This document shows positions 28,101 to 63,755 of a DNA stretch of 64,000 bases, in pieces; position 1 is the first letter of the stretch, and every line of letters starts with the position of its first letter. Position numbers and translations under genes: made by a program. This stretch comes from Cordylochernes scorpioides. Lineage: Eukaryota; Arthropoda; Arachnida; Pseudoscorpiones; Chernetidae. Location of the stretch: positions 49,445,061-49,509,060 of the forward strand of contig CP092870.1 of NCBI GenBank assembly GCA_030710605.1, written 5' to 3'. The notes below the pieces were generated by a model. The model saw nothing but the letters and a program-made list of their open reading frames with translations. It did not search any database and had not been told where the DNA came from.

Positions 28101-31100
28101 TCTTAACAGAGAGTTGCTAAATAGTAAATTGCCAATTTTGCAAATGTAAACTGTCCTTTGTTGAGAGGTGTCCTCTAGCGTGAGTGTCCTCTCATGTAGG
28201 TTGTTCTACTGTATTGGTGATGGAAACTGTACTTTGTAGAGAGGTGTCCTCTAGCGTGAGTGTCCTCTCATGGAGGTTGTTCTACTGTATTGTTGATGAA
28301 AACTGTCCTTTGTAGAGAGGTGTCCTCTAGCGTGAGTGTCCTCTCATGTAGGTTGTTCTACTGTATTGGTGATGGAAACTGTACTTTGTAGAGAGGTGTC
28401 CTCTAGCGTGAGTGTCCTCTCATGGAGGTTGTTCTACTGTATTGTTGATGAAAACTGTCCTTTGTAGAGAGGTGTCCTCTAGCGTGAGTGTCCTCTCATG
28501 GAGGTTGTTCCACTGTATTGGTGATGGAAACTGTCCTTTGTAGAGAGGCGTCCTCTAGCGTGAGTGTCCTCTCATGGAGGTTGTTCTCCTGTATTGGTGA
28601 TGGAAACTGTCCTTTGTAGAGAGGTGTCCTCTAGCGTGAGTGTCCTCTCATGGAGATTGTTCCACTGTATTGGTGATGGAAACTGTCCTTTGTAAAGAGA
28701 TGTCCTCTAGCGGGAGTGTCCTCTCATGGAGGTTGTTCTACTGTATTGGTGATGGAATATGTCCTTTGTAGAGAGGTGTCCTCTAGCATGAGTGTCCTCT
28801 CATGGAGATTGTTCCACTGTATTGGTGATGGAAACTGTCCTTTGTAAAGAGATGTCCTTTAGCGTGAGTGTCCTCTCATGGAGATTGTTCCACTGTATTG
28901 GTGATGGAAACTGTCCTTTGTGAAGAGATGTCCTTTAGCGTGAGTGTCCTCTCATGGAGGTTGTTCTACTGTATTGGTGATGGAAACTGTCCTTTGTAAA
29001 GAGATGTCCTTTAGCGTGAGTGTCCTCTCATGGAGATTGTTCCACTGTATTTGTGATGGAAACTGTCCTTTGTAAAGAGATGTCCTTTAGCGTGAGTGTC
29101 CTCTCATGGAGGTTGTTCTACTGTATTGGTGATGGAAACTGTCCTTTGTAAAGAGATGTCCTTTAGCGTGAGTGTCCTCTCATGGAGGTTGTTCTACTGT
29201 ATTGGTGATGGAAACTGTCCTTTGTAGAGAGGTGTCCTCTAGTGGGAGTGTCCTCTCATGGAGGTTGTTCTACTGTATTGGTGATGGAAACTGTCCTTTG
29301 TAGAGAGGTGTCCTCTAGTGGGAGTGTCCTCTCATGGAGGTTGTTCTACTGTATTGGTGATGGAAACTGTCCTTTGTAGAGAGGTGTCCTCTAGTGGGAG
29401 TGTCCTCTCATGGAGGTTGTTCTACTGTATTGGTGATGGAAACTGTCCTTTGTAGAGAGGTGTCCTCTAGTGGGAGTGTCCTCTCATGGAGGTTGTACTA
29501 CTGTATTATATTGCATATATTGGCCTTCTCTCCATTGTTGAGCAGTTGGTTCATAGACTCTAAGAGTGTAAACTAAACAAAAGATGTATTTCTAATAGCA
29601 TCACTTCTCTAGACATTACTAGACAAGTGTCCTGCCAGCCACTGGTGCCAAAACACCAGGTTTGGCTCACAATGACTGATTGTTTTGACAACAACAATTT
29701 TTAGAACTCCCCCATTTCCTAGATAATTTGCCCCATATCCCACAATTTCAGGATGTTTAGAACATGGGTGGTGTAATGATAAGGCACAATTTGAATTATA
29801 GTTACAAGAAAAGGTAATAAGACCAAATCCAAATAAATAAATAGTGTGTGACATTTCTGTAACAGCGTTGTTATCATCTTCAGACAAAAGAATAAATGAA
29901 AAATCACAGCACATTCTTAATACACTGGGCCGCAAAATTAAAGATACAACATATTTTTCAACACAAGGCAATAAGACCAAATCCAAATAAATAAATAGTG
30001 TGTGACGTTTCGGTAACAGCGTTGTTACCATCTTCAGACAAAAGTACGAAGTTACCGAATTATTTGGAATTGGTCTTATTACCTTGTGTTTATAATCTAT
30101 AATCCAAATTGTGCCTTATCAACATATTTTTCATTTATCTCAAATTTTATTGAACATTTATCAATGAAATTTCATGCACAATTTATTATTGCAAATTTGA
30201 TTAAAATACTCAAAATCAACGATATCTAACACGTATTATATACAAATTAGCTGGTCAACCAATGATCTTCTTGCAGCTCCCTCCTCCTTTTTCATCCAGG
30301 CTTGGGACCGGCAAAGGCAGAATTCTTCTTTAATATGCTTAGTACACGTGGTACAGGCCATGATAATCATGGTGGGTAGAAGTTAGCGACTGCTTTTACT
30401 GTAAGTGCACCACATGTCTACATATGTGAAATGCACTTCGACTTTGCACTTACAAATGTGCCAGAGCTCCGTTTGGTTACTTGCACTCGCTGGTGGGGTT
30501 GGACTTTTGCAAGAATCGGGGGGCCTTTGGAGCATTTTTTTTTTATTGAAAAAAAAAAAAAGACCAATGCTGGATTCGATCCAGGGTCGTAGCGGTTGAA
30601 AACCAACGGTTTAGACTACCCTTCTACTAACCCCTGTATGAGTTTGTGTGTATGTGTAGTTAAAATATTGTAGCGTAGAAGTCTTGGAATATCTGAAGAT
30701 GTATTTATTGATGACGTCAGTACGACTAGTCGACAATTATCAACAAACTATCTACAGCTAGAGAATATCAAGCAAGCTAAGGAATATTTAAGTTGATTTC
30801 ACAAATATAAAGTGTAATCTGTTTTTAATGTTTTCATTGAATAATTTAATTAAATTGAATATTCACAAGGTAATTAGACCAAATCTAAAAAAAATAAATA
30901 GTGTGTGACATTTCTGTAACAGCGTTGTCTAAAGATGATAACAACGCTGTTACTGAAACGTCACACACTATTTATTTGGATTTGGTTTTATTACCCCCCC
31001 CCCCCCTTTTTTTTTTTTTTTTGCTTATCCCTAGTACACGTGGTACAGGCTATGATATTCATGGTGGGTAGAAGTTGGCGACTGCTTTTACTGTAAGTGC

Positions 31101-37100: not shown

Positions 37101-40100
37101 ATTATCATGGCCTGTACCACGTGTACTAGGGATAAGCTATATATATATCCCTGGACCCTGGGGGGGACCACAGGTGTGAGGGGTTCTCGGAATCTTATCT
37201 GTAAATAAAGAAAACGGGACGGTGGCTGACGAACCTCATTATTATTATCTTTACCTGGGGATAAGTTGTTTTATCATCTGACTCTCTCTCCCTATAAATA
37301 CCTCTTGTATATAATTTTATTGGAGAACTAAAAGGTAAATACCACCTTTATAATAAATTAATTATCTCCAAATTTGTCCTTGCTTTATTTATCTCCGCGA
37401 CAATATTGATGAGACAAAGACGGGGATGTAATATGGTTTATTCAGTCATATACTGGGATTGTGGTCTGGTCCAGGAAGGTTGTTTGGGTCTCATCAGGCC
37501 AGTTTTAAGAGGGTCTGTAGCTGTACCTGAAGAATTTCTCAATCACCATGTCAAAATCCAAACAGGACGAAGATTAATTTTTATACTCTCACGTTGTATT
37601 TAACACATTGCTTTTTTTTGCTAATCCCTAGTACACATGGTACAGGCCATGATGATAATCATGGTGGGTAGAAGTAGGCGACTGCTTTTACTGTAAGTCC
37701 ACCACATGTCTACACATGTGAAAAGCAGTTCGAATTTGCACTTACAAATGTGCCAGAGCCCCGTTTGGTTACTTGCACTCGATGGTAGGGTTTGACTTTT
37801 GCAAGATTCAGGGGCCATTGGAGCATTTTTTTTTTTTTTTTTTTTTTAATCAGAAAAAAGTGCCCAATGCAGGAATCAAACCCGGGTCGTAGCGGTTGAA
37901 AACCAATGGTTTAGACCATCCTTCCACCGACCTCCCTTGCTGCAAACAAGACATTGCTGCGAAAAGGTAGTCAAAGTTCAAATACAATTTGTTACCTTTC
38001 ATCTCTGTGGTCCGTTTCTCTCTAGGATATAACCTAAAATAATAAATAAGAAACCTGTTGTCCCACCACGTGAGTCACATGTACCATCAGTCGGTCGGCT
38101 ATGTGCTCTCTTCTTCTTCTTCTTTCTTATCTCCACACAATCATATTAGGGTATCAAGCTTGTAAAGCTTGAGATCATGACTGGGTGAAGTAGAATGCGT
38201 CTGCCTTTGTCATTAAGACTGGGAGCACTACTCAGTGGCAGGCCAATTTAGCTCCAAAAGAAATGGCCGCCTCTGACATGAGGAACAGACGCCATGTGCA
38301 GCCGCTCCTAACATGGAGTACAAACACTGCTCATCCGGTATCCCTGGATTAGGAGCCCTAACAGGGTACTATCAGCCGGGCCAGCTGAGCCCAGGTTGTT
38401 TAGTGAGCTTGTTACTGCTCCCCCTCCTCCTTTTTCATCCGGGCTTGGGACCGGCAAAGTCAGAGTTTCGGCTATGTGCTGATACACAACAGTATATTGT
38501 CATTTTTATTAAATTCCACTTTACACAATCCTATATATCCCTCTTAAATACAGCTAAACCTTCCTATAAGGATCTTATTAGAGCTGGTAGTGAACCAAAA
38601 AACTCATAAGTAAATAATATTCAATTTCATACGATAATAAGACCAAATCCAAATAAATAGTGTTTGACTTTTCAGCGTTGTTACCATCATCAAACAAAAG
38701 AATAAATGAGAAAATATCTTAAATAATGACTATTTAAGAACATGCTGTGATATTTTTTATCATTTATTATTTTGTCAGAAGATATGATAACAACACTGAA
38801 ATGTCACACACTATTTATTTGAATTTGGTCTTATTTTTCTTGTAGCTATAATCTCTAATTGTTTGTTATGAACAAGGGCATCTCCTCAGCGTGCAACTGA
38901 AATGAAGGTGGCGCAAGCCATCTGTCGGAATAAATATCAACTATTCTCGTTGATTTCTAATTATTCCAGAATTGGCCATATACCCATTCTTGATTAATCA
39001 AGAAAAGCTAACCATGTACGTGTTTTAGACTGTTGGCCCGATATTGTTAAATTGTTTGTTATTATAAACATCTTTTATAACCTGTTTGTTAGGCGATACC
39101 GAAGCAATATTATCTAATTGTTTTCAATATTCTAATTCAACAGTCACCAAATTTCTCACCGCTTACATCTATTCTGGTGGTATATATATCCATAGTACAA
39201 ATGGTACAGGCTATGATACTCATAGTGGGTAGTAATCTACTGCTTTTACTGTAAGTATGGCTACATACATAGACTCTTCTTCTAATACAGTAGAACCTCT
39301 CTTTAGCCCACACCCTGCTAGCAGAAACCTCTCAACAAAGGATAGTTTTCATTTGCAAAATTAACATTTTTACTATTTAGCAACTCTACGGTAAGAGGAC
39401 ACCTCTCCCTAAAGGACACTTTGGCTCTGTAATTTGGTGTTGTCCTTTACGGGGAGGTTCTACTGTAGCAACTCTCTGGAAAGAGAACACCTCCCTCTAA
39501 AAGACACTTTGGCTCTGCAATTAGATGTCCTTTACTGTATGTACAGTTAAACATGTCTATAGCGCTCCCTCTAAATAGCGCCTTCCTCTCCATAGCGCCC
39601 AATTTTAAACATTAAAATGTAAGCATTTTACATTAAAAGTGACCTGTCTATAGCACCCTATATTGGTAAGTCCCAAGAGGGGGCGCTATAGACAGGTTTA
39701 ACTGTATATATTTATCTGTTTAAAATAGTGCAGACCTTGCACTTTTTCCTGTATTGACAAGATGCCAGTAAAATAATTTTAATTGTCAATTGTTTATCCT
39801 GATACATCTAACAAGTTGTCAAATGTGGGTTTGATGTATTCCAGTCCCGGCAGCGAGAGAGGATGAATGAAGAACACAACCAGCGACTCTCAGCTACCGT
39901 GGACAAGCTACTGGCAGAGTCCAACGAGCGGCTCCAGCTTCACCTAAAGGAACGCATGCATGCTCTAGATGAGAAGAACTCACTTGGCCAGGAGCTGGAA
40001 CGTACCAAACGCACTCTGGAAGACATCACAGGAGAGAGGGACAAGATTCTCACAGAGTTGAGCAAGATGCGCTCTGAGATGGATTCTCTGCGGCATGATT

Positions 40101-43100
40101 TGCAGTCATACAGAGCTGAGACATTAGTGGCTGCGTGAGTATCTTCTTCTTGTGTTGTTGTTTCTTATCCCCTTGTGTAGAGATTACATCAGTCCATGTT
40201 CCTCCAGCTGTTTATAGACAGTGTTGTTGTTGTTTCTTATCCCCTTGTGTAAAGATTACACCAATTCCATGAGTCCATGTTCCTCCAGCTGTTTATAGAC
40301 AGTGTTGTTGTTGTTTCTTATCCCCTTGTGTAAAGATTACACCAATTCCATGAGTCCATGTTCCTCCAGCTGTTTATAGACAGTGTTGTTGTTGTTTCTT
40401 ATCCCCTTGTGTAAAGATTACACCAATTCCATGAGTCCATGTTCCTCCAGCTGTTTATAGACAGTGTTGTTGTTGTTTCTTATCCCCTTGTGTAAAGATT
40501 ACACCAATTCCACGAGTCCATGTTCCTCCAGCTGTTTATAGACAGTGTTGTTGTTGTTTCTTATCCCCTTGTGTAAAGATTACACCAATTCCATGAGTCC
40601 ATGCTCCTCCAGCTGTTTATAGACAGTGTTGTTGTTGTTTCTTATCCCCTTGTATAAAGATTACACCAATTCCACGAGTCCATGTTCCTCCAGCTGTTTA
40701 TAGACAGTGTTGTTGTTGTTTCTTATCCCCTTGTGTAAAGATTACACCAATTCCATGAGTCCATGTTCCTCCAGCTGTTTATAGACAGTGTTGTTGTTGT
40801 TTCTTATCCCCTTGTGTAAAGATTACACCAATTCCATGAGTCCATGTTCCTCCAGCTGTTTATAGACAGTGTTGTTGTTGTTTCTTATCCCCTTGTGTAA
40901 AGATTACACCAATTCCACGAGTCCATGCTCCTCCAGCTGTTTATAGACAGTGTTGTTGTTGTTTCTTATCCCCTTGTGTAAAGATTACACCAATTCCACG
41001 AGTCCATGTTCCTCCAGCTGTTTATAGACAGTGTTGTTGTTGTTTCTTATCCCCTTGTGTAAAGATTACACCAATTCCACGAGTCCATGCTCCTCCAGCT
41101 GTTTATAGACAGTGTTGTTGTTGTTTCTTATCCCCTTGTGTAGAGATTACACCAATTCCATGTGTCCATGCTCCTCAAGCTGTTTTATGCTAAGCAGTGG
41201 CCTCTCCCAAAGGTCCTGTTTAGTGCATCTAATACAAGCCAAAATGTGTTCTGGAGCTGCAGGTGCCAAGCTAAATTTTGGGCAAGGTAGTGTTGTCTGT
41301 ATCTTGTTAGTGTTGTTTGATGCTGTCTGAGGTTCAGAGCTCCTCCTGGGTCCACTCCACTGTACTAACTGTCATTAGGTGGGATCCTCCAGTTCTTGTT
41401 TATTTTTCTGTGGGAAGGGTTCTTTCGTGTCTTTTTTTCACTAGCGCATCAGCAGCTTCAATGCCAACGTGTGAGGGTATCCATTGAAGGTCAATTTTTG
41501 AGAGTTTTTGATGCCTAATATACATAGAAGAAGGATTGCTGTTGCCCTAACTTGTTCTTTCTATGTTTGAGCCCCTTTCTCCTGATGTGTTACAGGCGGA
41601 CCCTGCCCACCACATCCCTGTCCCCTGTATGGTCCCCATCTGGAGGAGGACTCATCTCACCCAGTGGTGGAGCCAAGGCAGGATCTCCCGTAGTACGCGG
41701 CCCACGTCTGGGAGAGATGGAAGTGGCACCCCCTGTAGCTGCAGACAAAGGCCCGTCAGCATGGGACCACCATGTCCTGGCCAATGTGCAACAGGCCTTC
41801 GATGTGACCAGCGACACAGAATGTAGCCAGACCGATGATAATGAGTCCATCTTCAACATGCTCTCCCCATCTGGTCATACAGATGCCCAGGCTCTAGCTT
41901 ACATGCTTCAAGAACAGCTGGACGCCATCAACAATGAGATTCGGTAACTACAATCCCATCAAACTCAAGGTGGTGTCTTGTCCATGGAGCAGATCGGTCC
42001 ATACACCCTGAACACAATACCGGCCAACTGAGGTGTCTGTATGGATGTCCTCTTCTGGATTGATGTCTGCCATATAGAGGACTGCAAGCTCTCTTAGAGT
42101 GGTGGTGGTGTCTTGTCCATGGAGCAGATCAGTCCATACACCCTGATCACAATACCGGCCAACTGAGGTGTCCATATGGATGTCCTCTTCTGGATTGATG
42201 TCTGCCATATAGAGGGCTGCAAGCTCTCTTAGAGTGGTGGTGGTGTCTTGTCCATGGAGCAGATCAGATCGGTCCATACACCCTGATCACAATACCGGCC
42301 AACTGAGGTGCCTTGTCCATTGCTCAATGGAAAGGGAGGGTACCATTAGTCAGCCATATTTCAGAGTTCCCTGTTCAAGGTTACTGTAGCGGCTCGGTGC
42401 TCACAACACCATACTTTGCCCTACAGGACATTCCTTACTTGTACTGCTTATCCTGGTAATAAGACCAAATACAAATAAATAAATAGTGTGTGATGTTTCT
42501 GAGTTGTTAGCATCTTCATATAAAAGTATTGAATGAGAAATTATACAACTGCATGTTTTAAAAAGTTTACTTTTATCAAGTGTTTAAACAACATAGCAGA
42601 TAACTAGATAATTTTCTAAAAACATCTTTTTTTTTTGCTTAACCCTAGTACATGTGGTACAGGCCATGATAATCATGGTGGGTAGAAGTAGGCGACTGCT
42701 TTTACTGTAAGTGCAACACATATCTACACATGTGAAAAGCAGTTAAACTTTGCACTTACAAATGTGCCAGAGCCCCTTTTGATTACTTGCACTTGCTGGT
42801 GAGGTTGGAATTTTGCAAGAATCAGAGACCATTGGAACATTTTTTATTTAAACATAAAAAAGTGCCCAATGCGGGAATCGAACCCGGGTCGTAGCGGTCG
42901 AAAACCACTGGTTTAGACCATCCTTCCACCGACCCCCCTTCTAAAAACATAAAGTATTATACTGAATTAGAAGTGGAAAAAAAATCCCACTTTTTTTAGT
43001 TATAATTAAAAGCATATTTGTAAATGTGAAAAATTAGTACAAATGTGATATTTCAGTTGCCCGATAAGGAGGTGCCTTTTTTCTTTTTCAATTAATGAAC

Positions 43101-46100
43101 CTTATCCCGTTACAATATCACATTCGTATAATATTTTCACATCGATTCGCGTTTTCATGCAATTCTGGCCTTAACTACCCATTTCATTATTTTTCAGGAT
43201 GCCTGAATGACAAATTTTTTTTTGGTCGTTGAGGGACAGCTTGCACCATGCTGACGAGGGCCAACAAGCCCGAAATACGTACATGGTTAGCTTTTCTTGA
43301 TTAATCAAGAATGGGGGCCAATTCTGGAATAATTTTAAAAAAATCAACGAGAATAGTTGATATTTATTCCAATAGATGGTGCAAGCAACTTTCAGTCACC
43401 TGATAAGCAGATGTCTTTTTTCTTTTTAATATCTGTAAATATCGCGCTGTTACCGAAACATCACCCACTATTAATATATTTGGATTTGGTCTAATTTTCT
43501 TGTGTTTGTAATCTATATAATCCAAATTGTTCCTCAGCAGAGCTGACTGCTACAGGGCACGTACGTCCCCAGGTGGCGGATAGGGGAATGATCTTCAAAT
43601 ATGAAGACCAGCTGTGAAACAAGCAGAATAACTGATGAATAAACAGTCACGGACCAACAGCAGCATTGTTAGAAGAGGAGAAAGACCTCTTTAAAAATCC
43701 TGACTTCAACTGACCCGGTTAATAGACATCAAAAAGAGTTCCTCTCCAGGGATACAGAGGTCTGTACTCATGTTAGCAGCAAAGGCTTCCATGTTAGGAA
43801 CAGTCTCAAATTACAGGCAAAGTCTGGCTTTCACGAGAGTGTGCCATGGTGCCATGATCAACGAAAGCTGCACCCTCCATTCCATGAGATGAGATGTGCT
43901 GTATCATTACACTCCCATCAGTTGGTGGTATCCATTGCCCTGCTGTGTTCCAGCATGATCCAGGAAGAGAAGCAGACCACAGAGCAGCGGGCGGAGGAGC
44001 TGGAGTCTAGGGTGGGCAGTCTGGAGACCATGGGGTTGTTGGGACCTCCCCGGGGCCCTGGGGGACCTAGGTCAACCTTGGAACCTCCCCGAGGGTCCCC
44101 TCCTCAGAGTGGCCGCAGCACCCCTAAGTCCACCTCCCATCATTCTCCCCAGCATGCGGATTACCATCACAAGTACCACACGGTAAGTTGTCTTCTGTGT
44201 GTTCCTTTCTCTATATTCCATCATAGTCACTAGATGTGGGGGTTGAGATGTTTTCATTCTTGAGATGTTTTGGTCAAACGATGCCGGCACTATGCTGCTT
44301 ACCTGCAACCCCACATTATTGACTAATCAGCTGATGAGCTCTACTCATCCCCAGCAGACACCATCAACAAGCTCTACTTTCTTAATCATATTAGGGTATC
44401 AAGCTTGTAGAGTTGACAATCATCATGACTAGAGGAAGTAGAATGTGTCTGTCATTAAAACTGGGAGCACTACTCAGTAGCAGGCCACTGACTTAGTTCC
44501 AATATGATATGGCCGCCTCTGACATGAGGAACAGACACCATGTACAGCTAACATGGAGTACATCCTGTATCTCTGGAGTCCTTACAGGGTACTATCAGCA
44601 TGGCCAGCTGAGCCCAGGTTTTTTAGTGAGCTTGTTACTGCTCCCCCTCCTCCCTTTTCATCCGGGCTTGGGACCAGCAAAGGCAGAGTTTATTCTTGAT
44701 ATGGTTTGATCAAATGATGTCTGGCACTATACTGCTCACTTGCAACCCCAAACCACATCATTGACTGTATTTTTTATTTATTATTATCCCATTGTATATA
44801 TATATATTGCGTATGATATTGTTGCGTATAATTATACAAGGTCACAGAGACTATATTCATTGATCAAATTTCACAATCTTGGTAGGGTTTGAATATAGGT
44901 CCTGTAATTAGGCTCCCATTGCATTCCAAGAGATGGTCTGGTGAGGCCTCTTAAAAAGTCTCCATGACGGAGAGCTGCTCTTGTTGGTTGGCTATATAGG
45001 GGACACCACCATGTGGTTGATTAGGCTGACTTCCTTAGGCAGAGCTGACTGCTACAGGGAGCGTCCCCAGGTGGTGGATAGGGGAACGACCTTCAGATAT
45101 GAACCAGGCCAGCATTGAAACAAGCAGAATAACTCTGACAAATAAGCATTCTCAGACCAACAACAGTATCGTTGTTGTTTCTTATCCCCTTGTGTAAAGA
45201 TTACACAAATTCCATGAGTTCATGATCTCATGGATTGGGGTATAGGGGTGCAGCTTTCGTTGATCCAGGCACACTTTGGTGAAAGTCTGACTTTGCCTCC
45301 AACAACAGTATTGTTAGAAGAGGAGAAAGACCTTTTTATAAATCCTGAGTTTAACTGTTGATAGACCTCAGCAAGGTTCCTCTCCATGGATACAGAGGTC
45401 TGTACTCATGTTGGCTGCAGTAGCTTCCATGTTAGGAACCGCCTCATATTTCAGACAGACTTTCACCAAAGTGTGCCATGGTACCATGATTAATGAAAGC
45501 TGCACCCCATATTCCATGAAATCAGCTTGAGAAACTGTCTGTACTCATATTATAGTCGGCAGCAAAGTTGTCTGCTTCCATGTTAGGAACGGCCTCAAAT
45601 TACAGACAAAGACAGACCAGTTTTCACCATCATGATTGGGTAATTAGTTGGGTTTACATATTATTGACTGTATTGACTCATCCATTGATGAGCTCTACTC
45701 TTCCCCGGCAGACACCATCAAAAGTCTGAAGCTTTACAAGCTTGATACCTTAGTGTGATTGAGTGGAGATAAGAAAGAAGAAGAAGAGTTTTCACCAAAG
45801 TGTGCCAGGATCAATGAAAGCTGCACCCCATTCCATGATTGGAGGGGCCTCAAATTACAGACAGACAGACCAGTTTTCACCAAAATGTGCCATGATCAAT
45901 GAAAACTGCACCCCATTCCATGAGATGAGATTAGACAGCTGTGAGATATCCACAAAGAGTGTGGGGATGTCCAGATCCCTCCAGCCATGTCAGCCAGCAT
46001 GGACCCAGGAGGTCCACTGAAAGAAGACCCAGCAGTCACGGGGGCCAGGATGATGTGTAGTCCCCCCACTTCCCGTTCTATACGACTGGAGCATGTGGCC

Positions 46101-49100
46101 CAAGCTCTGGCACAGACTAACGACGACTACCGAAGGTAATGTTTACAACTACTGTCTTTGTTATCCCATTGTATAATTATACAATGTCATGGAGACTTGT
46201 TGTTGTTGTTGTTCCTTATCTCCATGTGTAAATATTACACCAATACCATGAGTTCATGCTCCTCCAGCTGATTATAGACAGTGTTGTTGTTGTTTCTTAT
46301 CCCCTTGTGTAAAGATTACACAACATCCATGAGATAGTGTTGTTGTTGTTTCTTATCCCCTTGTGTAAAGATTACACCAATACCATGAGTCCATGCTCCT
46401 CCAGCTATTTATAGACAGTGTTGTTGTTGTTTCTTATCCCCTTGTGTAAAGATTACACAAATTCCATGAGTCCATGCTCCTCCAGCTGTTTTATGATAAG
46501 CAGCAGCCTCTCCCAAAGGTCCTGTTTAGACAACTAATACAAGCCAAAATGTGTTCTGGAGCTGCAGGTGCCAAGCTACATTTTGGGCAAGTGGGGTAGA
46601 TTTTGTTGTTATTTTCTATCTTCAATGGCTTGAGATGGCCTGTTCTAAATCTTGTTAGTGTTGTTTGATGCTGTCTGAGGTTCAGAGCTCCTCCTGGGTT
46701 CACTCCACTGTACCAACTGTGCTTAGGTGGGATCCTCCTGTTCTTGTTTATTTTTGTTTTGGCTACTGTTTCTTTACAATCATTATCTTCAATGGAAACA
46801 TGTCAGGGTATCCTTTGAAGGTGAATTTTTGAGGTTTTTTTTTAGATTTTTCGGAGATAACCAATTATGTTCCTCCTGTCTCTAAATTCCCCTGTGTGAC
46901 TCAAGTGTTGTATGGCACTTCTACTATCAGTAAGAATCCAGATATCTTGATAATTAGTAATTGTCATGAAGTCTAAATTCATAGACAATTGACAATCAAA
47001 ATACTTTTATTGACATCTTGTGTCGTATGGATGAACTGGCAGTCGTGTTTGTGAGGCGAGTGTTGATGTCCTTCCCACACGCGGACAACAAGAAGCAGAG
47101 GCAGGGCTAGATGTTAGCACCGAGAGTGATCAGGGACAGCCCACGGGACAGAGGTAGAGGCCATGACACAAACTTGGATGCCTATCACCGAGACATGGAG
47201 AGAGAGACCGAGAGAGACAGAAACAGTCTGCCGCAGGACACCCCCTAGAACCTCTGCTGACCACTCTTTGAATCTTTATTTTGACGTCAACATTTTTAGT
47301 GTTACATACAAATAGGGGTTTACAGGTAATATCAATAAAGATATAACATATATACAAAATATGGGGGTGGCAGCAAACAGAAACGGTGTACATTCCAAAA
47401 GAAGGGCAGGATCTTTTAAGGTATCGGCTCTAACTAATTGGAAGATATGTGACATATACTAAAAGTGTCATACAGTTTAAAATATACAATATATATATAA
47501 ATCTTTTTGGTCGCAGTGGTATAGCCTACTCCACGCTGATGAGCGCCAACAGCGCGAAACATGTTCGTGGATGGCTTTTCTTGATTTATCAAGAAATTGG
47601 GTTGGCCAAATATCACGGAGCAAGTTAAATAAACGTTTAGTTTATTTTTGCTCCACAAGATGGCGCTCTGCCATCTAAAAAGCACATATGCTCGTGGTTA
47701 GTAAATGCCTTCTTTATTTTAATATATACATGATACTATGTACAATTAATATGGTGCCTCTGCCAGCGCTACAGAGTTTTGTGGAGAATCACCAGCAGGT
47801 CTCCAGTGACACCACTTATTTCACGATCTACGAAGAATATGTAGATCAAAGATTTAAATATCAAATTCACAATCTTGGTAGGGTTGGGATACAGGTCCTG
47901 TCTTGAGGCTCCCATACATTCCAAGAGGTGGTCTTTGGTCCTGTACATTGTGTCACCATCCTGGAAGAGTCTTGTATGGCTGCCAGTTATAAGCCTGGAA
48001 ATACAGGTTGTCTCCCACATTCCAGAATAACTCCAGGGTTCAGATACCAATGATGGGATGTTGACTCCTGTATTTTTGTTTGGATGTTTCTTTTTTGTAT
48101 GCGTTTAAAAGAGTCAAAATCAAGGCTGCTGTCATGGCAGAGATGAACCACTACTCACACTAATCCTATCTCTGCTTATCTCACCAATAGCTTTTTTTTT
48201 TGCTGGAAAGGTATGTGACCATGGATTAATGAAATATCAAGAAACACTAGGTAATAACACACCAAATCTAAATGAATAGTGTGTGACGTTTCGATAACAG
48301 CATTGTTACCATCATCAGATAAAAGAACTGAAATTTATTTTTCTTTATTATTATCCCAAGTACACATAGTACAGGCCATGATAATCATGGTGCATGGTGG
48401 GTAGAAGTTGTGGATTCTTTTTTACTCTAAATGTACCACATGTCTTCACACTTGAAAAGCAGTTTGACTTTTGCACTTGAAAATGTGTCAGAGACCCGTT
48501 TGGTTACTTGCACTTGCTGGTGGGTTTGGACTTTTGCAAGTATCGGGCGCCGTTGGAGCCATTTAGAAAAAGTGTCCAATGCAGGATTCGATCTCTGATT
48601 GTAGCCCTCGAAAACAAATGGTTTAGACCACCCTTCCACCGACCCCACCAAATACTGAATGTACTTTTGTCTGATGATGGTCATACACTATTTATTTATT
48701 TGGTCTTAATACTGATAAGGCACAATTTGGATTATAGGTTATAAACACAAGGTAATAAGACCAAATCCAAATGAATAAATAGTGTGTGACATTTTGGTAA
48801 CAGCATTGTTACCATCTTCAGACAAAAGTACTGAATGAGAAATTTTACCACAGCATGTTTTTAAATAGTTACTGTTATCAAGTGTGTAAACAAGATAGCA
48901 GATAAAAATAATATTCTGTGTTTCTCAGAAAACTATCTTCTTCCTCTCTGCTATCTTGTTTACACACTTTATAACAGTAACTATTTAAAACATGCTGTGG
49001 TAAAATTTCTCATTGTCTGAAGATGGTAACAACACTGTTACACCGAAACGTCACACACTATTTATTTATTTGGATTTGGTCTTATTACCTTGTGTTTTTG

Positions 49101-52100
49101 GTCTTAATACCTTTTATTTCTCTATCAATAAACCAAATTGTGTCTTATTTATAAGCTAGAGAGATTGTTTGATTGTCCCCAGGGCCCCTGGAATGGTCCA
49201 CATGAGCCACCACCCCATGATGGCCACCTCCCAGCATGATATGCTCGTCAGGTTGGTCTCTCCTCTTTGACTCCAATCACCATTTACTAAAATATCCTCT
49301 GAATTGAAATACAGTAGAACTACCTCTCTGTAAAGGACAACACCTAGTTACAGAGTCAAAGTGTCCTTTAGGGAGAGGTGTCTTCTTACCAGACAGTTAC
49401 TAAATACAGTAGAACTACCTCTCTGTAAAGGACAACACCTAGTTACAGAGCCAAAGTGTCCTTTAGGGAGAGGTGTCTTCTTACCAGACAGTTACTAAAT
49501 ACAGTAGAACTACCTCTCTGTAAAGGACAACACCTAGTTACAGAGTCAAAGTGTCCTTTAGGGAGAGGTGTCTTCTTACCAGACAGTTACTAAATACAGT
49601 AGAACTACCTCTCTGTAAAGGACAACACCTAGTTACAGAGCCAAAGTGTCCTTTAGGGAGAGATGTCCTCTTACTGGAGAGTTACTAAATACAGTAGAAC
49701 TACCTCTCTGTAAAGGACAACACCTAGTTACAGAGTCAAAGTGTCCTTTAGGGAGAGGTGTCTTCTTACCAGACAGTTACTAAATACAGTAGAACTACCT
49801 CCCTGTAAAGGACAACACCTAGTTGCAGAGTCAAAGTGTCCTTTAGGGAGAGATGTCCTCTTACCAGAGAGTTACTAAATACAGTAGAACTACCTCCCTG
49901 TAAAGGACAACACCTAGTTGCAGAGTCAAAGTGTCCTTTAGGGAGAGATGTCCTCTTACCAGAGAGTTACTAAATACAGTAGAACTACCTCCCTGTAAAG
50001 GACAACACCTAGTTGCAGAGTCAAAGTGTCCTTTAGGGAGAGATGTCCTCTTACCAGAGAGTTACTAAATACAGTAGAACTACCTCTCTGTAAAGGACAA
50101 CACCTAGTTACAGAGCCAAAGTGTCCTTTAGGGAGAGATGTCCACTTACTGGAGAGTTACTAAATACAGTAGAACTACCTCTCTGTAAAGGACAACACCT
50201 AGTTACAGAGTCAAAGTGTCCTTTAGGGAGAGATGTCCTCTTACTGGAGAGTTACTAAATACAGTAGAACTACCTCTCTGTAAAGGACAACACCTAGTTG
50301 CAGAGTCAAAGTGTCCTTTAGGGAGAGATGTCCTCTTACCAGACAGTTACTAAATACAGTAGAACTACCTCTCTGTAAAGGACAACACCTAGTTACAGAG
50401 CCAAAGTGTCCTTTAGGGAGAGATGTCCACTTACTGGAGAGTTACTAAATACAGTAGAACTACCTCTCTGTAAAGGACAACACCTAGTTACAGAGTCAAA
50501 GTGTCCTTTAGGGAGAGATGTCCTCTTACTGGAGAGTTACTAAATACAGTAGAACTACCTCTCTGTAAAGGACAACACCTAGTTACAGAGTCAAAGTGTC
50601 CTTTAGAGAGAGGTATCTTCCTACTGGAGAGTTGCTAAATTGTAAAAATGGTAATTTTGGTGATGTAAACTGTCCTTTATAGAAAGGTGTCTTCTAGCGC
50701 GAGTGTCCTCTCATGGAGGTTCTACTGCACTAATATTTATTTATTCATTTTTTACAAAACATACGCTATATCCTATGTAGCACTCGCTGGTGGGGTTGAA
50801 CTTTTGCAAGAATCAGGGTCCATTGGAGCATTTTTTTTTTAACAGAAAAAAGTGTCCAATGCGGGAATCGAACCCGGGTCTTAGCAGACCAACTGTTTAG
50901 ACTATCCGTCCACCAACCCCCCTCAACTGATTTTAATGTTGATGTATGTATTGTGAGTTGTGTGAGGTTAACAATTGTATATGTTATGTGTCACAGGGCT
51001 GACCTGTTTCCTACGGCTTCCTCCTATGGCTCTATGCATTCCTCCCAGGACTCTCTCCACAAGACTCCCAAAAAGAAAGGATTAAAATCATCCCTAGGCC
51101 GCTTCTTCAGCAAGAAGGAGAAAGCTAAGGCAAAAGAGGCTCTCGGCAAGGAATACTACAGTCAAGGTGAGTTTGCTCCTACAACATCTATAATAATTAT
51201 GAAAAAAGACATCTCCTTATCGTGCAACTGAAAGTTGCTGATGTCTTGCGCTATCTATCAGAATAAATATCAACTATTCTCATTGATTTTTTAATTATTA
51301 TTTTAGAATTGGCCAAATACCCATTCTTGATTAATCAAGAAAAGCTAACCACATACAGGTTTCGGGCTGTTGGCCCTCTTCAGCGTGGTGCAAGCTGTAC
51401 CTCAACGACCAAAAAACTGGTCATTCAAGGCATCCTGAAAAATCATCAAACAGGTAGTTAAGGTCAGATTTGTGTGAGACCGCGACACAATGTGAAAAAA
51501 TAGTACAAATGTGATATTGTACTGGGATAAGGTGCATAGATTAAGAAAAAGGCATCTCCTTATCGTGCAACTGAAAGTTGCTGATGGCTTGTGCCATCTA
51601 TCGGAATAAATATCAACTATTCTTGTTGATTTTTAATCATTTAAGAATGACACATTTTGGCTGAATTGTTTCTTGTTGTTACTCCATTCTTATTTGGAGG
51701 GAAACCCTGCAAGGATCTTAGTTTTCTCTCTTATCTCCATTCAATCATACAGTACAAGGCAAGATCTCTTTGGTACTGAACCCTAGAAAGCCTATCACAA
51801 GGTCTTAGACCATAATGATGCTAAAAATTGAAATAATACCCCCCCCCCCCCCCTCAAACCCTAAGGGAGGCTCTAAAAAATACATTTAAAGCATCCCTGC
51901 ATAAAATAAATTTAGAGAAAATATAGCTTCATATCATGATTTCACAAATCACTACTACTTTGTTTTCCAAACACTATAATTATAGGAACATAGACCCAGA
52001 GCAGCAGCTTTACACACCCAAGATAGAGGCCATTGCTGTGATAGAGATGTATGGAGACATCTGAGGCCCTTCATTGGATACAACAACAACAACAGAAAAA

Positions 52101-55100
52101 TGCATTGGATCCAGAGCAGCAGCTTTACACACCCAAGATAGAGGACATTGCTGTGATAGAGATGTATGGAGACATCTGAGTCTCTTCATTGGACACAACA
52201 ACAACAGAAAAATGCATTGGATCCAGAACAGCAGCTTTACAAACCCAAGATAGAGGACATTGCTGTGATAGAGATGTATGGAGAGATCGAGGCTCTTCAT
52301 TGGACACGACAACAACAACAGAAAATAGACATGGACCCAGAACAGCAGCTTTACACACCCAAGATAGAGGACATTGCTGTGATAGAGATGTATGGAGACA
52401 TCTGAGGCTCTTCATTGGATACAACAACAACAGAAAATATACATGGACCCAGAACAGCAGCTTTACAAACCCAAGATAGAGGACATTGCTGTGATAGAGA
52501 TGTATGGAGACATCTGAGTCTCTTCATTGGACACGACAACAACAACAGAAAATATACATGGACCCAGAACAGCAGCTTTACAAACCCAAGATAGAGGACA
52601 TTGCTGTGATAGAGATGTATGGAGACATCTGAGGCTCTTCATTGGATACAACAACAACAGAAAAATGCATTGGATCCAGAACAGCAGCTTTACAAACCCA
52701 AGATAGAGGACATTGCTGTGATAGAGATGTATGGAGACATCTGAGTCTCTTCATTGGACACGACAACAACAACAGAAAATTGACATGGACCCAGAACAGC
52801 AGCTTTACACACCCAAGATAGAGGACATTGCTGTGATAGAGATGTATGGAGACATCTGAGGCTCTTCATTGGATACAACAACAACAGAAAAATGCATTGG
52901 ATCCAGAACAGCAGCTTTACAAACCCAAGATAGAGGACATTGCTGTGATAGAGATGTATGGAGACATCTGAGTCTCTTCATTGGACACGACAACAACAAC
53001 AGAAAATAGACATGGACCCAGAACAGCAGCTTTACAAACCCAAGATAGAGGACATTGCTGTGATAGAGATTTATGGAGACATCTGAGGCTCTTCATTGGA
53101 CACGACAACAACAACAGAAAATTGACATGGACCCAGAACAGCAGCTTTACACACCCAAGATAGAGGACATTGCTGTGATAGAGATGTATGGAGACATCTG
53201 AGGCTCTTCATTGGATACAACAACAACAGAAAAATGCATTGGATCCAGAACAGCAGCTTTACAAACCAAAAATAGAGGACATTGCTGTGATAGAGATGTA
53301 TGGAGACATCTGAGTCTCTTCATTGGACACGACAACAACAACAGAAAATAGACATGGACCCAGAACAGCAGCTTTACAAACCCAAGATAGAGGACATTGC
53401 TGTGATAGAGATTTATGGAGACATCTGAGGCTCTTCATTGGACACAACAACAACAACAGAAAATTGACATGGACCCAGAACAGCAGCTTTACAAACCCAA
53501 GATAGAGGACATTGCTGTGATAGAGATTTATGGAGACATCTGAGGCTCTTCATTGGACACAACAACAACAACAGAAAATTGACATGGACCCAGAACAGCA
53601 GCTTTACAAACCCAAGATAGAGGACATTGCTGTGATAGAGATGTATGGAGACATCTGAGTCTCTTCATTGGATACAACAACAACAACAGAAAAATGCATT
53701 GGATCCAGAGCAGCAGCTTTACACACCCAAGATAGAGGACATTGCTGTGATAGAGATGTATGGAGACATCTGAGTCTCTTCATTGGACACAACAACAACA
53801 GAAAAATGCATTGGATCCAGAACAGCAGCTTTACAAACCCAAGATAGAGGACATTGCTGTGATAGAGATGTATGGAGAGATCGAGGCTCTTCATTGGACA
53901 CGACAACAACAACAGAAAATAGACATGGACCCAGAACAGCAGCTTTACACACCCAAGATAGAGGACATTGCTGTGATAGAGATGTATGGAGACATCTGAG
54001 GCTCTTCATTGGATACAACAACAACAGAAAATATACATGGACCCAGAACAGCAGCTTTACAAACCCAAGATAGAGGACATTGCTGTGATAGAGATGTATG
54101 GAGACATCTGAGTCTCTTCATTGGACACGACAACAACAACAGAAAATATACATGGACCCAGAACAGCAGCTTTACAAACCCAAGATAGAGGACATTGCTG
54201 TGATAGAGATGTATGGAGACATCTGAGGCTCTTCATTGGATACAACAACAACAGAAAAATGCATTGGATCCAGAACAGCAGCTTTACAAACCCAAGATAG
54301 AGGACATTGCTGTGATAGAGATGTATGGAGACATCTGAGTCTCTTCATTGGACACGACAACAACAACAGAAAATTGACATGGACCCAGAACAGCAGCTTT
54401 ACACACCCAAGATAGAGGACATTGCTGTGATAGAGATGTATGGAGACATCTGAGGCTCTTCATTGGATACAACAACAACAGAAAAATGCATTGGATCCAG
54501 AACAGCAGCTTTACAAACCCAAGATAGAGGACATTGCTGTGATAGAGATGTATGGAGACATCTGAGTCTCTTCATTGGACACGACAACAACAACAGAAAA
54601 TAGACATGGACCCAGAACAGCAGCTTTACAAACCCAAGATAGAGGACATTGCTGTGATAGAGATTTATGGAGACATCTGAGGCTCTTCATTGGACACGAC
54701 AACAACAACAGAAAATTGACATGGACCCAGAACAGCAGCTTTACACACCCAAGATAGAGGACATTGCTGTGATAGAGATGTATGGAGACATCTGAGGCTC
54801 TTCATTGGATACAACAACAACAGAAAAATGCATTGGATCCAGAACAGCAGCTTTACAAACCAAAAATAGAGGACATTGCTGTGATAGAGATGTATGGAGA
54901 CATCTGAGTCTCTTCATTGGACACGACAACAACAACAGAAAATAGACATGGACCCAGAACAGCAGCTTTACAAACCCAAGATAGAGGACATTGCTGTGAT
55001 AGAGATTTATGGAGACATCTGAGGCTCTTCATTGGACACAACAACAACAACAGAAAATTGACATGGACCCAGAACAGCAGCTTTACAAACCCAAGATAGA

Positions 55101-58100
55101 GGACATTGCTGTGATAGAGATTTATGGAGACATCTGAGGCTCTTCATTGGACACAACAACAACAACAGAAAATTGACATGGACCCAGAACAGCAGCTTTA
55201 CAAACCCAAGATAGAGGACATTGCTGTGATAGAGATGTATGGAGACATCTGAGTCTCTTCATTGGATGCAACAACAACAACAGAAAATTGACATGGACCC
55301 AGAACAGCAGCTTTACACACCCAAGATAGAGGACATTGCTGTGATAGAGATTTATGGAGACATCTGAGGCTCTTCATTGGACACCACAACAACAACAGAA
55401 AATTGACATGGACCCAGAACAGCAGCTTTACACACCCAAGATAGAGGACATTGCTGTGATAGAGATGTATGGAGACATCTGAGGCTCTTCATTGGATACA
55501 ACAACAACAGAAAAATGCATTGGATCCAGAACAGCAGCTTTACAAACCCAAGATAGAGGACATTGCTGTGATAGAGATGTATGGAGACATCTGAGTCTCT
55601 TCATTGGACACGACAACAACAACAGAAAATAGACATGGACCCAGAACAGCAGCTTTACAAACCCAAGATAGAGGACATTGCTGTGATAGAGATTTATGGA
55701 GACATCTGAGGCTCTTCATTGGACACAACAACAACAACAGAAAATTGACATGGACCCAGAACAGCAGCTTTACAAACCCAAGATAGAGGACATTGCTGTG
55801 ATAGAGATGTATGGAGACATCTGAGGCTCTTCATTGGACACGACAACAACAGAAAATAGACATGGACCCAGAACAGCAGCTTTACAAACCCAAGATAGAG
55901 GACATTGCTGTGATAGAGATTTATGGAGACATCTGAGGCTCTTCATTGGACACAACAACAACAACAGAAAATTGACATGGACCCAGAACAGCAGCTTTAC
56001 AAACCCAAGATAGAGGACATTGCTGTGATAGAGATGTATGGAGACATCTGAGGCTCTTCATTGGATACAACAACAACAGAAAAATGCATTGGATCCAGAA
56101 CAGCAGCTTTACAAACCCAAGATAGAGGACATTGCTGTGATAGAGATGTATGGAGACATCTGAGTCTCTTCATTGGACACGACAACAACAACAGAAAATT
56201 GACATGGACCCAGAACAGCAGCTTTACAAACCCAAGATAGAGGACATTGCTGTGATAGAGATTTATGGAGACATCTGAGGCTCTTCATTGGACACAACAA
56301 CAACAACAGAAAATTGACATGGACCCAGAACAGCAGCTTTACAAACCCAAGATAGAGGACATTGCTGTGATAGAGATGTATGGAGACATCTGAGGCTCTT
56401 CATTGGATACAACAACAACAGAAAAATGCATTGGATCCAGAACAGCAGCTTTACAAACCCAAGATAGAGGACATTGCTGTGATAGAGATGCATGGAGACA
56501 TCTGAGTCTCTTCATTGGACACGACAACAACAACAGAAAATTGACATGGACCCAGAACAGCAGCTTTACACACCCAAGATAGAGGACATTGCTGTGATAG
56601 AGATGTATGGAGACATCTGAGGCTCTTCATTGGATACAACAACAACAGAAAAATGCATTGGATCCAGAACAGCAGCTTTACAAACCCAAGATAGAGGACA
56701 TTGCTGTGATAGAGATGTATGGAGACATCTGAGTCTCTTCATTGGACACGACAACAACAACAGAAAATAGACATGGACCCAGAACAGCAGCTTTACAAAC
56801 CCAAGATAGAGGACATTGCTGTGATAGAGATTTATGGAGACATCTGAGGCTCTTCATTGGACACGACAACAACAACAGAAAATTGACATGGACCCAGAAC
56901 AGCAGCTTTACACACCCAAGATAGAGGACATTGCTGTGATAGAGATGTATGGAGACATCTGAGGCTCTTCATTGGATACAACAACAACAGAAAAATGCAT
57001 TGGATCCAGAACAGCAGCTTTACAAACCCAAGATAGAGGACATTGCTGTGATAGAGATGTATGGAGACATCTGAGTCTCTTCATTGGACACGACAACAAC
57101 AACAGAAAATAGACATGGACCCAGAACAGCAGCTTTACAAACCCAAGATAGAGGACATTGCTGTGATAGAGATTTATGGAGACATCTGAGGCTCTTCATT
57201 GGACACAACAACAACAACAGAAAATTGACATGGACCCAGAACAGCAGCTTTACAAACCCAAGATAGAGGACATTGCTGTGATAGAGATTTATGGAGACAT
57301 CTGAGGCTCTTCATTGGACACAACAACAACAACAGAAAATTGACATGGACCCAGAACAGCAGCTTTACAAACCCAAGATAGAGGACATTGCTGTGATAGA
57401 GATGTATGGAGACATCTGAGTCTCTTCATTGGATGCAACAACAACAACAGAAAATTGACATGGACCCAGAACAGCAGCTTTACACACCCAAGATAGAGGA
57501 CATTGCTGTGATAGAGATTTATGGAGACATCTGAGGCTCTTCATTGGACACCACAACAACAACAGAAAATTGACATGGACCCAGAACAGCAGCTTTACAC
57601 ACCCAAGATAGAGGACATTGCTGTGATAGAGATGTATGGAGACATCTGAGGCTCTTCATTGGATACAACAACAACAGAAAAATGCATTGGATCCAGAACA
57701 GCAGCTTTACAAACCCAAGATAGAGGACATTGCTGTGATAGAGATGTATGGAGACATCTGAGTCTCTTCATTGGACACGACAACAACAACAGAAAATAGA
57801 CATGGACCCAGAACAGCAGCTTTACAAACCCAAGATAGAGGACATTGCTGTGATAGAGATTTATGGAGACATCTGAGGCTCTTCATTGGACACAACAACA
57901 ACAACAGAAAATTGACATGGACCCAGAACAGCAGCTTTACAAACCCAAGATAGAGGACATTGCTGTGATAGAGATGTATGGAGACATCTGAGTCTCTTCA
58001 TTGGATGCAACAACAACAGAAAATTGACATGGACCCAGAACAGCAGCTTTACACACCCAAGATAGAGGACATTGCTGTGATAGAGATGTATGGAGACATC

Positions 58101-61100
58101 TGAGTCTCTTCATTGGATGCAACAACAACAACAGAAAATATACATGGACCCAGAACAGCAGCTTTACACACCCAAGATAGAGGACATTGCAGTGATAGAG
58201 ATGTATGGAGACATCTCAGGCTCTTCACTGGACACGACAACAACATAGGAATTAGCTAGGTTCCTAAATTAAGTGGTGTATTATATAAAAACTAGAGTTG
58301 TGTGGAAGTTTGGAGTACATGTGTGGTATACTAGTGAGTTGGAAGGTCACCAATTGGCTGGTTTTTGCAGGGGCCATGTCAGACAGCGAAGGAGGACCAG
58401 GGGACAGCCTGGGGCTGCCACTTGGCCAGAAGGGAGCTTACGGGGCACCCAATAAAAAGTAAGTAAAACCTTTCTTCTATATAGAGGAGAGTGTTACTCT
58501 ATAGCTTTATCAATGCCTGGATTTATGTATGGCTACAGTTAACAGAAAAAAAAAAAAAAAACATTTTTTTTTTACATAGAAATAAAATTTCATTCTTTTT
58601 CTTCTTTCTTATCTCCACCCAATCATATTAGAGTATCAAGCTTGTAGAGCTTGTTGATGGTATCTGTGCTGGGGATGAGTAGAGCTCATCAATGGATGAG
58701 GCAATAAAGTCAATAATATCTTCTTTCTTATCTCCATTCAATCATATCAGGGTATCAAGCTTGTAGTGCTTGTTGATGGTGTCTGCTGGGGATGAGTAGA
58801 GCTCATCAATGGGTGGGCCAAAACAGTCAATAATGTCTTCTTCTTTCTTATTTCCACCCAATCATATCAAGCTTGTAGAGCTTGTTGATGGTGTCTGCTG
58901 GGGATGAGTAGAGCTCATCAATGGATGAGTCAATACAGACAATAATGTCTTCTTCTTTCTTATCTCCACTCAATCATATCAGGGTATCAAGCTTGTAGAG
59001 CTTGTTGATGGTGTCTGCTGGGGATGAGTAGAGCTCATCAATGGATGAGTCAATAAAGTCAATAATATCTTCTTTCTTATCTCCATTCAATCATATTAGG
59101 GTATCAAGCTTGTAAAGCTTGTTTATGATGTCTGGTGGGGATGAGTAGAGCTCATCAATGGTTGAGTCAATACAGTCAATAATGTTTCCTTCTTTCCTAT
59201 CTCCATTCAATCATATTAGGGTATCAAGCTTGTAAAGCTTGTTTATGATGTCTGGTGGGGATGAGTAGAGCTCATCAATGGTTGAGTCAATACAGTCAAT
59301 AATGTCTTCTTATTTCCTATCTCCATTCAATCATATCAGGGTATCAAGCTTGTAGTGCTTGTTGATGGTGTCTGCTGGGGATGAGTAGAGCTCATCAATG
59401 GATGGGCCAAAACAGTCAATAATGTCTTCTTCTTTCTTATTTCCACCCAATCATATCAAGCTTGTAGAGCTTGTTGATGGTGTCTGCTGGGGATAAGTAG
59501 AGCTCATCAATGGATGAGTCAATACAGACAATAATGTCTTCTTCTTTCTTATCTCCACTCAATCATATCAGGGTATCAAGCTTGTAGAGCTTGTTGATGG
59601 TGTCTGTTCTGTGGTTGAAGAGCTCATTAATGGATAAGTCAATACGGTCAATAATGTCTTCTTTCTTATCTCCATTCAATCATATCAGGGTATCAAGCTT
59701 GTAGTGCTTGTTGATGGTGTCTGCTGGGGATGAGTAGGGCTCATCAATGGAGATTTGACATCCATAATGATTGGGTGAAGTATAATACGTCTGCTTTAGT
59801 CATTAAGACTGGGAGTACTAATCAGTAGCAGACCACTGACTTAGCTCTAATATGAAATGGCTGTCTCTGAAATGAGGAACAGATGCCAACTTTCAGTTGC
59901 ACAATGAGGAGATGCCTTTTTCTTAAATTTATCTTTAGCAATGTTTAATGGTATTATTTTCTCTAAAAATCAATAATATTCACAAAAAAAAAACTTTCTA
60001 AAAAACACAGCTTTTTTAATATAGGAATGTGCATGTGTTTGTTTACATTTCAATTCTCAGATGCACTGCTGAACAACCTTCTTGCAGTTTCTCCCGTCAT
60101 GAACTCCTGGCTGAATCAATGAAGGCTGGTACTCCATTTGCGCTTTGGAATGGTCCCACCGTTGTAGCTTGGCTTGAGGTAAGTTCAAGGTGACTTTAGT
60201 GCTATTCAAAATCCTTCTATCTGTTTACAAAGACTTTCATTAAGATTATAAATGGAATGAATAAATATGAGAGCCATATTTGTCTTAGAACCCAATAAAC
60301 ACATGGTAATAAGACCAAATATATAAAAAGTGTAATAGTGTGTGACTTTCTTCATTGTTACCATCTTCAGACAAAAGTACTGAATGAATACATTCAGATC
60401 TTCAAACAAAAGTATTGAATGAGGTACATTCAGATCTTCAGAAAGAAAGTACTGAATGAGGTACATTCAGATCTTCAGACAAAAGTACTGAATGAATACA
60501 TTCAGATCTTAAGACAAAAGTACTGAATGAGGTACATTCAGATCTTCAGACAAAAGTACTGAATTAAGTACATTCAGATCTTCAGAAAAAAGTACTGAAT
60601 GAGGTACATTCAGATCTTCAGACAAAAGTACTGAATGAGGTACATTCAGATCTTCAGACAAAAGTACTGAATGAAGTACATTCAGATCTTCAGACAAAAG
60701 TACTGAATGAGGTACATTCAGATCTTCAGACAAAAGTACTGAATGAAGTACATTCAAATCTTCAGACAAAAGTACTGAATGAACAAAAATACTGAATGAG
60801 GTACATTCAGATCTTCAGACAAAAGTACTGATTGAAGTACATTCAGATCTTCAGACAAAAGTACTGAATGAACAAAAGTACTGAATGAAGTACATTCAGA
60901 TCTTCAGACAAAAGTACTGAATGAAGTACATTCAGATCTTCAGAAAAAAGTACTGAATGAGGTACATTCAGATCTTCAGACAAAAGTACTAAATGACCAA
61001 AAGTACTGAATGAATACATTGAGGTACATTCAGATCTTCAGACAAAAGTACTGAATGAAGTACATTCAGATCTTCAGACAAAAGTATTGAATGAGGTACA

Positions 61101-61750: not shown

Positions 61751-61869
61751 GTCAGTCTGGGACAAACTTCTCTCACCCTACATAGCATGGAATAGATCTA
61801 TAATAAAAGTTTGCAGAAGTTTTACAACTATACCGCAAATGTTTCTTTTGAATGAAAAATCAAAATTTA

Positions 61870-62270
61870 TTTTCTTCCTTCTTATCTCTACTCAATCACA
61901 CTAAGGTATCAAGCATGTAAAGCTTGAGACTTTGGTAGTGTCTGCCGGGGAAAAGTAGAGCTCATCAATGGATGAGTCAATAATGTGTCTTGGGGTTGCA
62001 GGTTGAGAATATGACAACCATCATGATTGGGTAAAGTAAAATGCGTCTGCCTTTGTTATTAAGACAGGGAGCACTACTCTGACATGAGGAACAGACGCCA
62101 TGTGCAGCCGCTCCTAACATGGAGTACAAACGCTGCTCATCCTGTATCCCTGGATTAGGAGCCCTTACAGGGTACTATCAGCATGGCCAGCTGAGCCCAG
62201 ATAGTGAGCTTGTTACTGCTCCCCCTCCTCCTGTTTCATCCGGGCTTGGGACCGGCAAAGGCGTATTTAT
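61870..62270 (+). repeat. C element lacking C2
   Basis: C1 (CTTATCTCTACTCAATCACA, GTAGAGCTCATCAATGGATG), TTGGGGTTGCAGGTTGAGAA, C3 (GGAACAGACGCCATGTGCAG) and the terminus CATCCGGGCTTGGGACCGGC. It shows C1 joined to C3 in one copy. Confidence 0.85.
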
Positions 62271-63480: not shown

Positions 63481-63735
63481 AACTAAACATTGATTATAAC
63501 CTTCTCCCTGATATTTGGCCAACCCATTTTCTTGATAAATCAAGAAAAGCCATCCACTCGTGGTGCTCATGGTCAGCATATGCCTTCCTTGATTTTAATG
63601 CCAACACATAACATTTGCAACATTTGTATTAAAGAAAAAGGCATCTCCTTATTGTGCAACTGAAAGTTTCTGATTGCTTGCTCCATCTATCAGAATACAT
63701 ATCAACTATTCTTGTTAACTATTCCAGAATTGTCC
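63481..63735. repeat. Fragments of Z2 (-) and Z1
   Basis: CTAAACATTGATTATAACCT, CTTGATAAATCAAGAAAAGC and CATCCACTCGTGGTGCTCAT are Z2 in reverse with the ribozyme truncated. GGCATCTCCTTATTGTGCAA to AACTATTCTTGTTAACTATT is the Z1 3' part. Confidence 0.6.
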
Positions 63736-63755
63736 AAACATTTATTTTTCAACAT

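Follow-up and report, generated by a model that had tools for sequence, protein, structure and literature searches.

Metazoan non-LTR (long terminal repeat) retrozymes, as described by Cervera and de la Pena 2020 (PMC7229834), are tandem repeats of ~170-400 bp that lack open reading frames (ORFs), carry type I hammerhead ribozymes, have a GC content below 45-50%, show target duplications longer than 4 bp and are predicted to yield highly paired RNA circles. The enzyme that moves animal retrozymes is stated to be an open question (PMC7229834, PMC7761336). Penelope-like elements (PLEs) are called a strong candidate in PMC7229834, without insertion-end evidence, and retrozyme repeats are said in PMC7761336 to show no conserved motif that helps to deduce the mobilizing element. 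According to the PLE literature, PLE insertions consist of inverted, head-to-head pseudo-LTRs (pLTRs), one of which bears a tail (PMC3846280). The PLE enzyme of the anole cleaves AT-rich targets on both strands, extends each strand and starts at two adjacent internal sites whose interval corresponds to the tail (PMC11167929). Here, we describe a hammerhead-bearing repeat in a 64-kb stretch of the genome of the pseudoscorpion Cordylochernes scorpioides (the window), a repeat whose shape of insertion suggests copying by the enzymes of PLEs. This Penelope-type insertion anatomy, which the original prediction did not include, is the new part of the work and is also what makes the element interesting; we did not find two-site insertion of retrozymes in print within the part of the literature searched.

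Direct reading of the window bore out the hammerhead that the original prediction had placed at 47530-47571, with the cut after 47565, and added an outward extension of helix I that the prediction lacked, in which AGCC (47523-47526) pairs with GGCT (47573-47576) around TAC/T. The components are as follows, those within the core being given by direct reading.

47523-47576, plus strand: hammerhead including outer helix I (sequence, Rfam HH9 match, covariation)
47530-47571, plus strand: hammerhead core, predicted cut between 47565 and 47566
47530-47535, plus strand: TCCACG, 5' strand of helix I
47536-47542, plus strand: CTGATGA
47543-47546, 47547-47551 and 47552-47555, plus strand: helix II GCGC, loop CAACA, helix II GCGC
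47556-47558, plus strand: GAA
47559-47564, plus strand: ACATGT, stem III hexamer
47565, plus strand: T at position H17
47566-47571, plus strand: CGTGGA, 3' strand of helix I

With the invariant core in order and helices I and II formed, the sequence has the make-up of a type I hammerhead. At gathering thresholds, no Rfam family matched anywhere in the window. The closest family, Hammerhead_HH9 (RF02275), which shares the core, loop and helix layout, matched 47520-47585 in an E-value search of 47300-47900 with 31.2 bits (E = 6.7e-6), short of its gathering score of 52. The original prediction had counted the lack of an above-threshold covariance-model match against itself, and formally this lack is what was found. 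The 18 HH9 matches in the genome also fall below that score (best 41.8 bits).

Covariation supports a hammerhead structure beyond chance. In a structure-fitted alignment of 101 distinct rows, 95.6% of 1399 cells were paired and two-sided changes occurred in 11 of 14 pairs, with 155 such cells compared to 61.2 in shuffles (0/500 as high), although the fitting leans these counts toward the structure. That alignment holds the best 150 of 165 model matches and draws on 92 of 97 sources, without L012, L019, L041, L051 and L053; L097 and L098 are also out. A 12-sequence MAFFT alignment, not fitted to the structure, pairs in 98.9% of 180 cells and contains 12 two-sided cells (0/500 shuffles as high), while further pair types in these 12 copies were not above shuffles (6 versus 6.4). 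Subfamily A has AGCC/GGCT, TCCACG/CGTGGA and GCGC/GCGC where subfamily B has AGCT/AGCT, ACCACG/CGTGGT and GGGC/GCCC; the changes that separate the two subfamilies are paired. The core pattern CTGANGAGNGCCAACAGCNCGAAA has 31,099 exact matches (15,581 + 15,518) in the 2.62-Gb genome, compared to 0 + 0 for the reversed pattern. Sequence, covariation and copy number thus support a type I hammerhead within an ORF-less repeat, as originally predicted, and the hammerhead at 47530-47571 is confirmed as real, with self-cleavage predicted.

A palindromic stem III, through which two transcripts could pair, had also been proposed. As a family trait this stands, since 106 of 134 parsed rows carry the hexamer ACGCGT (a set that includes tandem units and holds the window copy twice, as window and as L001). 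The window's own ACATGT accounts for 2 of the 134 rows, both being the same copy counted twice, and it differs from ACGCGT by two CpG-type transitions; given this rarity and these two changes, the palindromic state of ACATGT may be luck. Position H17 is T in 70 rows, C in 47, A in 15 and G in 2, and is therefore not G in 132 of 134. A helix III that consists of a single pair with a palindromic tetraloop likens the family to HHR_Amex1; this arrangement is described as acting as a dimer in axolotl and newt (PMC7229834).

The hammerhead resides in a unit of ~338-352 bp to which no ORF belongs and which is often tandem, with a spacing of 338 bp in L069 (five consecutive cores) and of 343-352 bp in L014 and L025. 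Tandem units within an arm are alike (mean 0.980, minimum 0.731; 81 comparisons). The majority of sampled copies fall short of two units, a length exceeded by 3 of 96 core arms. Folded as circles, two units gave -114.4 and -110.5 kcal/mol (z = -8.2 and -7.0; 60 shuffles each) at GC contents of 0.41 and 0.39, the low-GC, highly self-paired form described for metazoan retrozymes. An ORF-less tandem repeat of a few hundred bp with a type I hammerhead, low GC, target duplications that exceed 4 bp when present and a predicted, highly paired circle fits a new, non-autonomous family of non-LTR retrozymes, likened in each of these traits to those in PMC7229834 and differing from them by two fixed 3' sites and head-to-head arms; the original prediction had given the family no name. 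One head-to-head array of a CAAAAA-loop variant (G000:C1:48800106-48808140) has 4 units on its minus side and 20 on its plus side.

Subfamilies A and B were mapped in the window and in the fetched loci. L001-L008 were the best DNA matches and L009-L026 the best HH9 matches, a biased sample because they were chosen as such; L027-L096 form a consecutive series of exact-core copies along C1, reaching 8.61 Mb where the matches listed extend to 10.47 Mb. Overlapping or duplicate loci (L012, L019, L028, L029, L041, L051 and L053) were left out of the end, orientation and flank counts. L001, which is the window copy, was left out of the zone, arm-length, unit-likeness and hidden-arm counts and kept beside the window copy in the initial 3'-end histogram. 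L027, L028 and L029 (C1, ~26, 290 and 407 kb) have their flanks in common as well as the insertion, and so look like segmental duplicates.

The 3' ends of the arms cluster at two sites, with 176 of 191 inside two zones: 108 in the first (zone 1, unit position 168-196) and 68 in the second (zone 2, 208-255), the other 15 lying elsewhere. Together, the zones cover 77 nt of the ~345-nt unit; they lie ~50 nt apart (interval 45-52 nt). Measured from the ribozyme cut, the two 3'-end sites are ~150 and ~200 nt downstream. The 5' ends are scattered (13 in zone 1, 26 in zone 2 and 154 elsewhere; 39/193 in zones), as random spread predicts. Adjacent arms of the same subfamily within 150 nt are predominantly head-to-head, with 53 divergent, 6 convergent and 4 direct pairs (35, 3 and 4 in the consecutive sample L027-L096 alone), and adjacent arms of mixed subfamily comprise 2 divergent, 5 convergent and 1 direct. 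Close neighbours among the first 100 matches listed for each of three core patterns (within 600 bp for the first pattern and 700 bp for the other two) were divergent 7, 15 and 9 times (31) versus convergent 1, 0 and 0 times (1). The two arms of a divergent pair used one site each in 40 of 46 assignable pairs (21 + 19; P = 1.6e-7), and in 24 of 30 within L027-L096 alone; 7 of the 53 divergent pairs have an end outside the zones.

Target duplications are enriched, a common word of 12 or more being present in the flanks of 19/45 pairs compared to 3.4 expected by re-pairing (for example, AGTTAGCCGTTTGT on both sides in L074), and (AT)3 lies within 30 nt in 35/45, versus 18% in random windows. These duplications, the fixed double 3' ends and the head-to-head arms, together with the compensatory changes in the ribozyme stems, make it very improbable that the repeat is a satellite or SINE-like (short interspersed element) sequence spread by unequal crossing-over or by a LINE (long interspersed element), with an incidental hammerhead, even though tandem arrays are present and 47506-47517 faintly resembles a tRNA A box by eye. 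That resemblance had given rise to a first idea of a tRNA-derived SINE, which was set aside when ARAGORN found no tRNA (A and B boxes were not scored) and the anatomy pointed elsewhere.

Arms longer than one unit (37 of 96 core arms, the longest of 5.7 units) need multimers or circles as template, which makes quite unlikely a reading in which the two-ended insertions derive from linear monomers cut by the ribozyme and not from circles. The cut is also crossed by 22 of the 88 arms that lack an intact core, and by all 96 core arms, which were selected for the core. Linear monomers would account for the 61 of 88 coreless arms that stop before the cut, and for the B arms of L049 and L074, whose first base is the one immediately 3' of the predicted cut (2/45 B arms, P = 0.008 for a place picked in hindsight), with two A arms starting two bases upstream of that position. 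The two B starts coincide with the 5' end predicted for cleaved RNA, which hints at cleavage in vivo but does not prove it. Two arms from the same insertion resemble each other more closely than do arms taken from separate loci (0.946 versus 0.894), the partner falling within the closest 10% in 21 of 41 cases.

Because the two-site, head-to-head plan is that of PLE insertions, we infer that a Penelope-like enzyme does the copying, primed at the target on two strands, and consider it likely that the retrozyme RNA, probably in circular form, is what is copied from both target strands. Under this scheme, tandem copies would be transcribed into RNA, which hammerheads, aided by palindromic stem III strands that pair within a dimer, would cut into units; a host ligase would then close the units into circles, as published retrozymes suggest. 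A Penelope-like protein, presumably combining GIY-YIG with a telomerase-like reverse transcriptase (RT), would cleave an AT-rich target on both strands, each of which would then prime reverse transcription at one of the two fixed sites on the retrozyme RNA. Copying may run more than once round the RNA, and the product would be two head-to-head arms of variable length, joined mid-way, with a short target duplication outside.

The retrozyme insertions have in common with PLEs (PMC3846280, PMC11167929) the head-to-head arms, a tail that may or may not be present, a pair of internal RT starts that lie close together downstream of a hammerhead, AT-rich targets and short target duplications. The inverted, head-to-head arms, one of them with a tail, are seen here as a mode of insertion, not as a mark of membership. 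The differences are that the retrozyme units read without an ORF, that the tail measures ~45-52 nt compared to the 31 bp or 30-40 bp given in the same sources, and that the ribozyme cut lies ~150 nt from the RT start, compared to ~85-92 nt computed from the PAc figures. Head-to-head arms, tail and hammerhead are all known from Penelope-like pLTRs (same sources), and GIY-YIG genes (PF01541) are abundant in the genome, 146 of 150 scored candidates matching, of 17,015 in total. The repeats could accordingly be solo or partly tandem pLTRs of an autonomous, hammerhead-bearing PLE, with no independent retrozyme; this appears unlikely, since ORF-less units stand in tandem at 343-352 spacing up to 20 times, a pattern-based ORF scan (97 sources, L097 and L098 not among them; ~299 kb of the genome read) found no GIY-YIG pattern and no Penelope-like ORF (RT plus GIY-YIG) in the units or beside them, and the sole RVT_1 frame (L087) is not tied to the repeat.

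Among the matches listed, GIY-YIG pairs within 6 kb are divergent in 11/11 cases. Two stretches, L097 and L098, have GIY-YIG at the stretch start followed by a further open frame and are 56% identical over 270 residues; no direct link between either and the retrozyme was found. As a separate observation, a divergent GIY-YIG pair (C1:8987892 and 8990875) has retrozyme variant copies at a distance of ~5 kb (G000:C1:8995927-8996635), which may be chance.

More tentatively, and with somewhat less than even confidence, we propose that every insertion is the two-headed product of a rolling circle, that both nicked strands prime on RNA circles, each at one of two fixed starts ~50 nt apart, that the Penelope 'tail' is the shortest second arm, and that retrozymes are obligate parasites of Penelope-like enzymes.

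Several observations weigh against copying of retrozyme circles by a Penelope-like enzyme. The zone limits were chosen after the histogram was seen, and in 6 of the 46 assignable pairs both arms end at one and the same site (4 site 1, 2 site 2). The partner arm is the nearest of all in just 12 of 41 cases, leaving a single shared template molecule unproven, and tandem source transcripts could serve as templates instead of circles. There is weak support for short hidden arms in copies with one arm, at 31/76 versus 9/76 for a same-site template, with shifted templates scoring at least as well in 47/76. On the side of the enzyme, no element combining RT with this hammerhead was found in the ~299 kb read, no hammerhead was seen in the part of L097 and L098 covered, and a sequence comparison of the retrozyme with L097 gave no convincing common sequence. 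We take L097 and L098, in which GIY-YIG lies upstream of a further frame in a Naiad-like order, to be Naiad-type PLEs, and Naiads are not known to carry hammerheads.

As a quantitative footprint, the insertion ends of this family point to Penelope-like enzymes and to two-strand priming; they also offer an explanation of the Penelope tail. With this footprint, the question of mobilization becomes testable in vitro and in any retrozyme-bearing genome.

Within the window, the copy around 47530-47571 is accompanied by three further core copies, all of subfamily B (C of CTGA at 22980, minus strand; 43251, plus strand; 51383, minus strand), and by insertions and fragments obtained from subfamily mapping.

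47499-47723, plus strand: subfamily A copy, ~0.64 unit, 5'-truncated, single arm with its 3' end at site 1 (unit coordinates 313 to 189)
22797-23142, minus strand: subfamily B copy, hammerhead 22934-22998
43051-43420, plus strand: subfamily B copy, hammerhead 43233-43298 with a 6-nt loop II
51195-51648, minus strand: subfamily B copy of more than one unit (448 nt), hammerhead 51337-51401
15765-16122: divergent two-arm insertion, subfamily B, without an intact core (15765-15945 minus, 15946-16122 plus)
27020-27364: divergent two-arm insertion, subfamily A (27020-27205 minus, 27205-27364 plus); the plus arm starts two bases before the predicted cleavage site
1624-1845: divergent two-arm insertion, subfamily B, partial (1624-1660 minus, 1659-1845 plus)
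38866-39039, minus strand: subfamily B fragment ending at site 1
63632-63738, minus strand: subfamily B fragment ending at site 1

The copy at 47499-47723, a single truncated unit or arm with one ribozyme, is probably inert by itself. Its candidate 7-bp target duplication, ATATACA (47482-47488 and 47724-47730), is weak because it is AT-rich.

A frame in L044 has titin and Dscam chains as its best named matches. The genome holds a second hammerhead family, C, whose palindromic stem III is 8 nt long, ACCATGGT, and which has 10,587 exact copies. Family C occurs at L074:2862-2927 (minus strand) and L074:3127-3192 (plus strand), and also in L011, L035, L047, L080 and L081; among the first 100 matches listed, its neighbours are divergent in 9 cases and convergent in 0. 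The window also contains long minisatellite arrays at 51988-58245, 23405-26950, 28144-29507, 49307-50640, 40183-41185 and 4663-5927, with units of 115, 111, 76, 95, 81 and 55 bp, respectively, a mariner-type transposase frame at 21516-22124 (minus strand) and a SAM-domain frame at 61350-61901 (plus strand), the last likely being a host exon.
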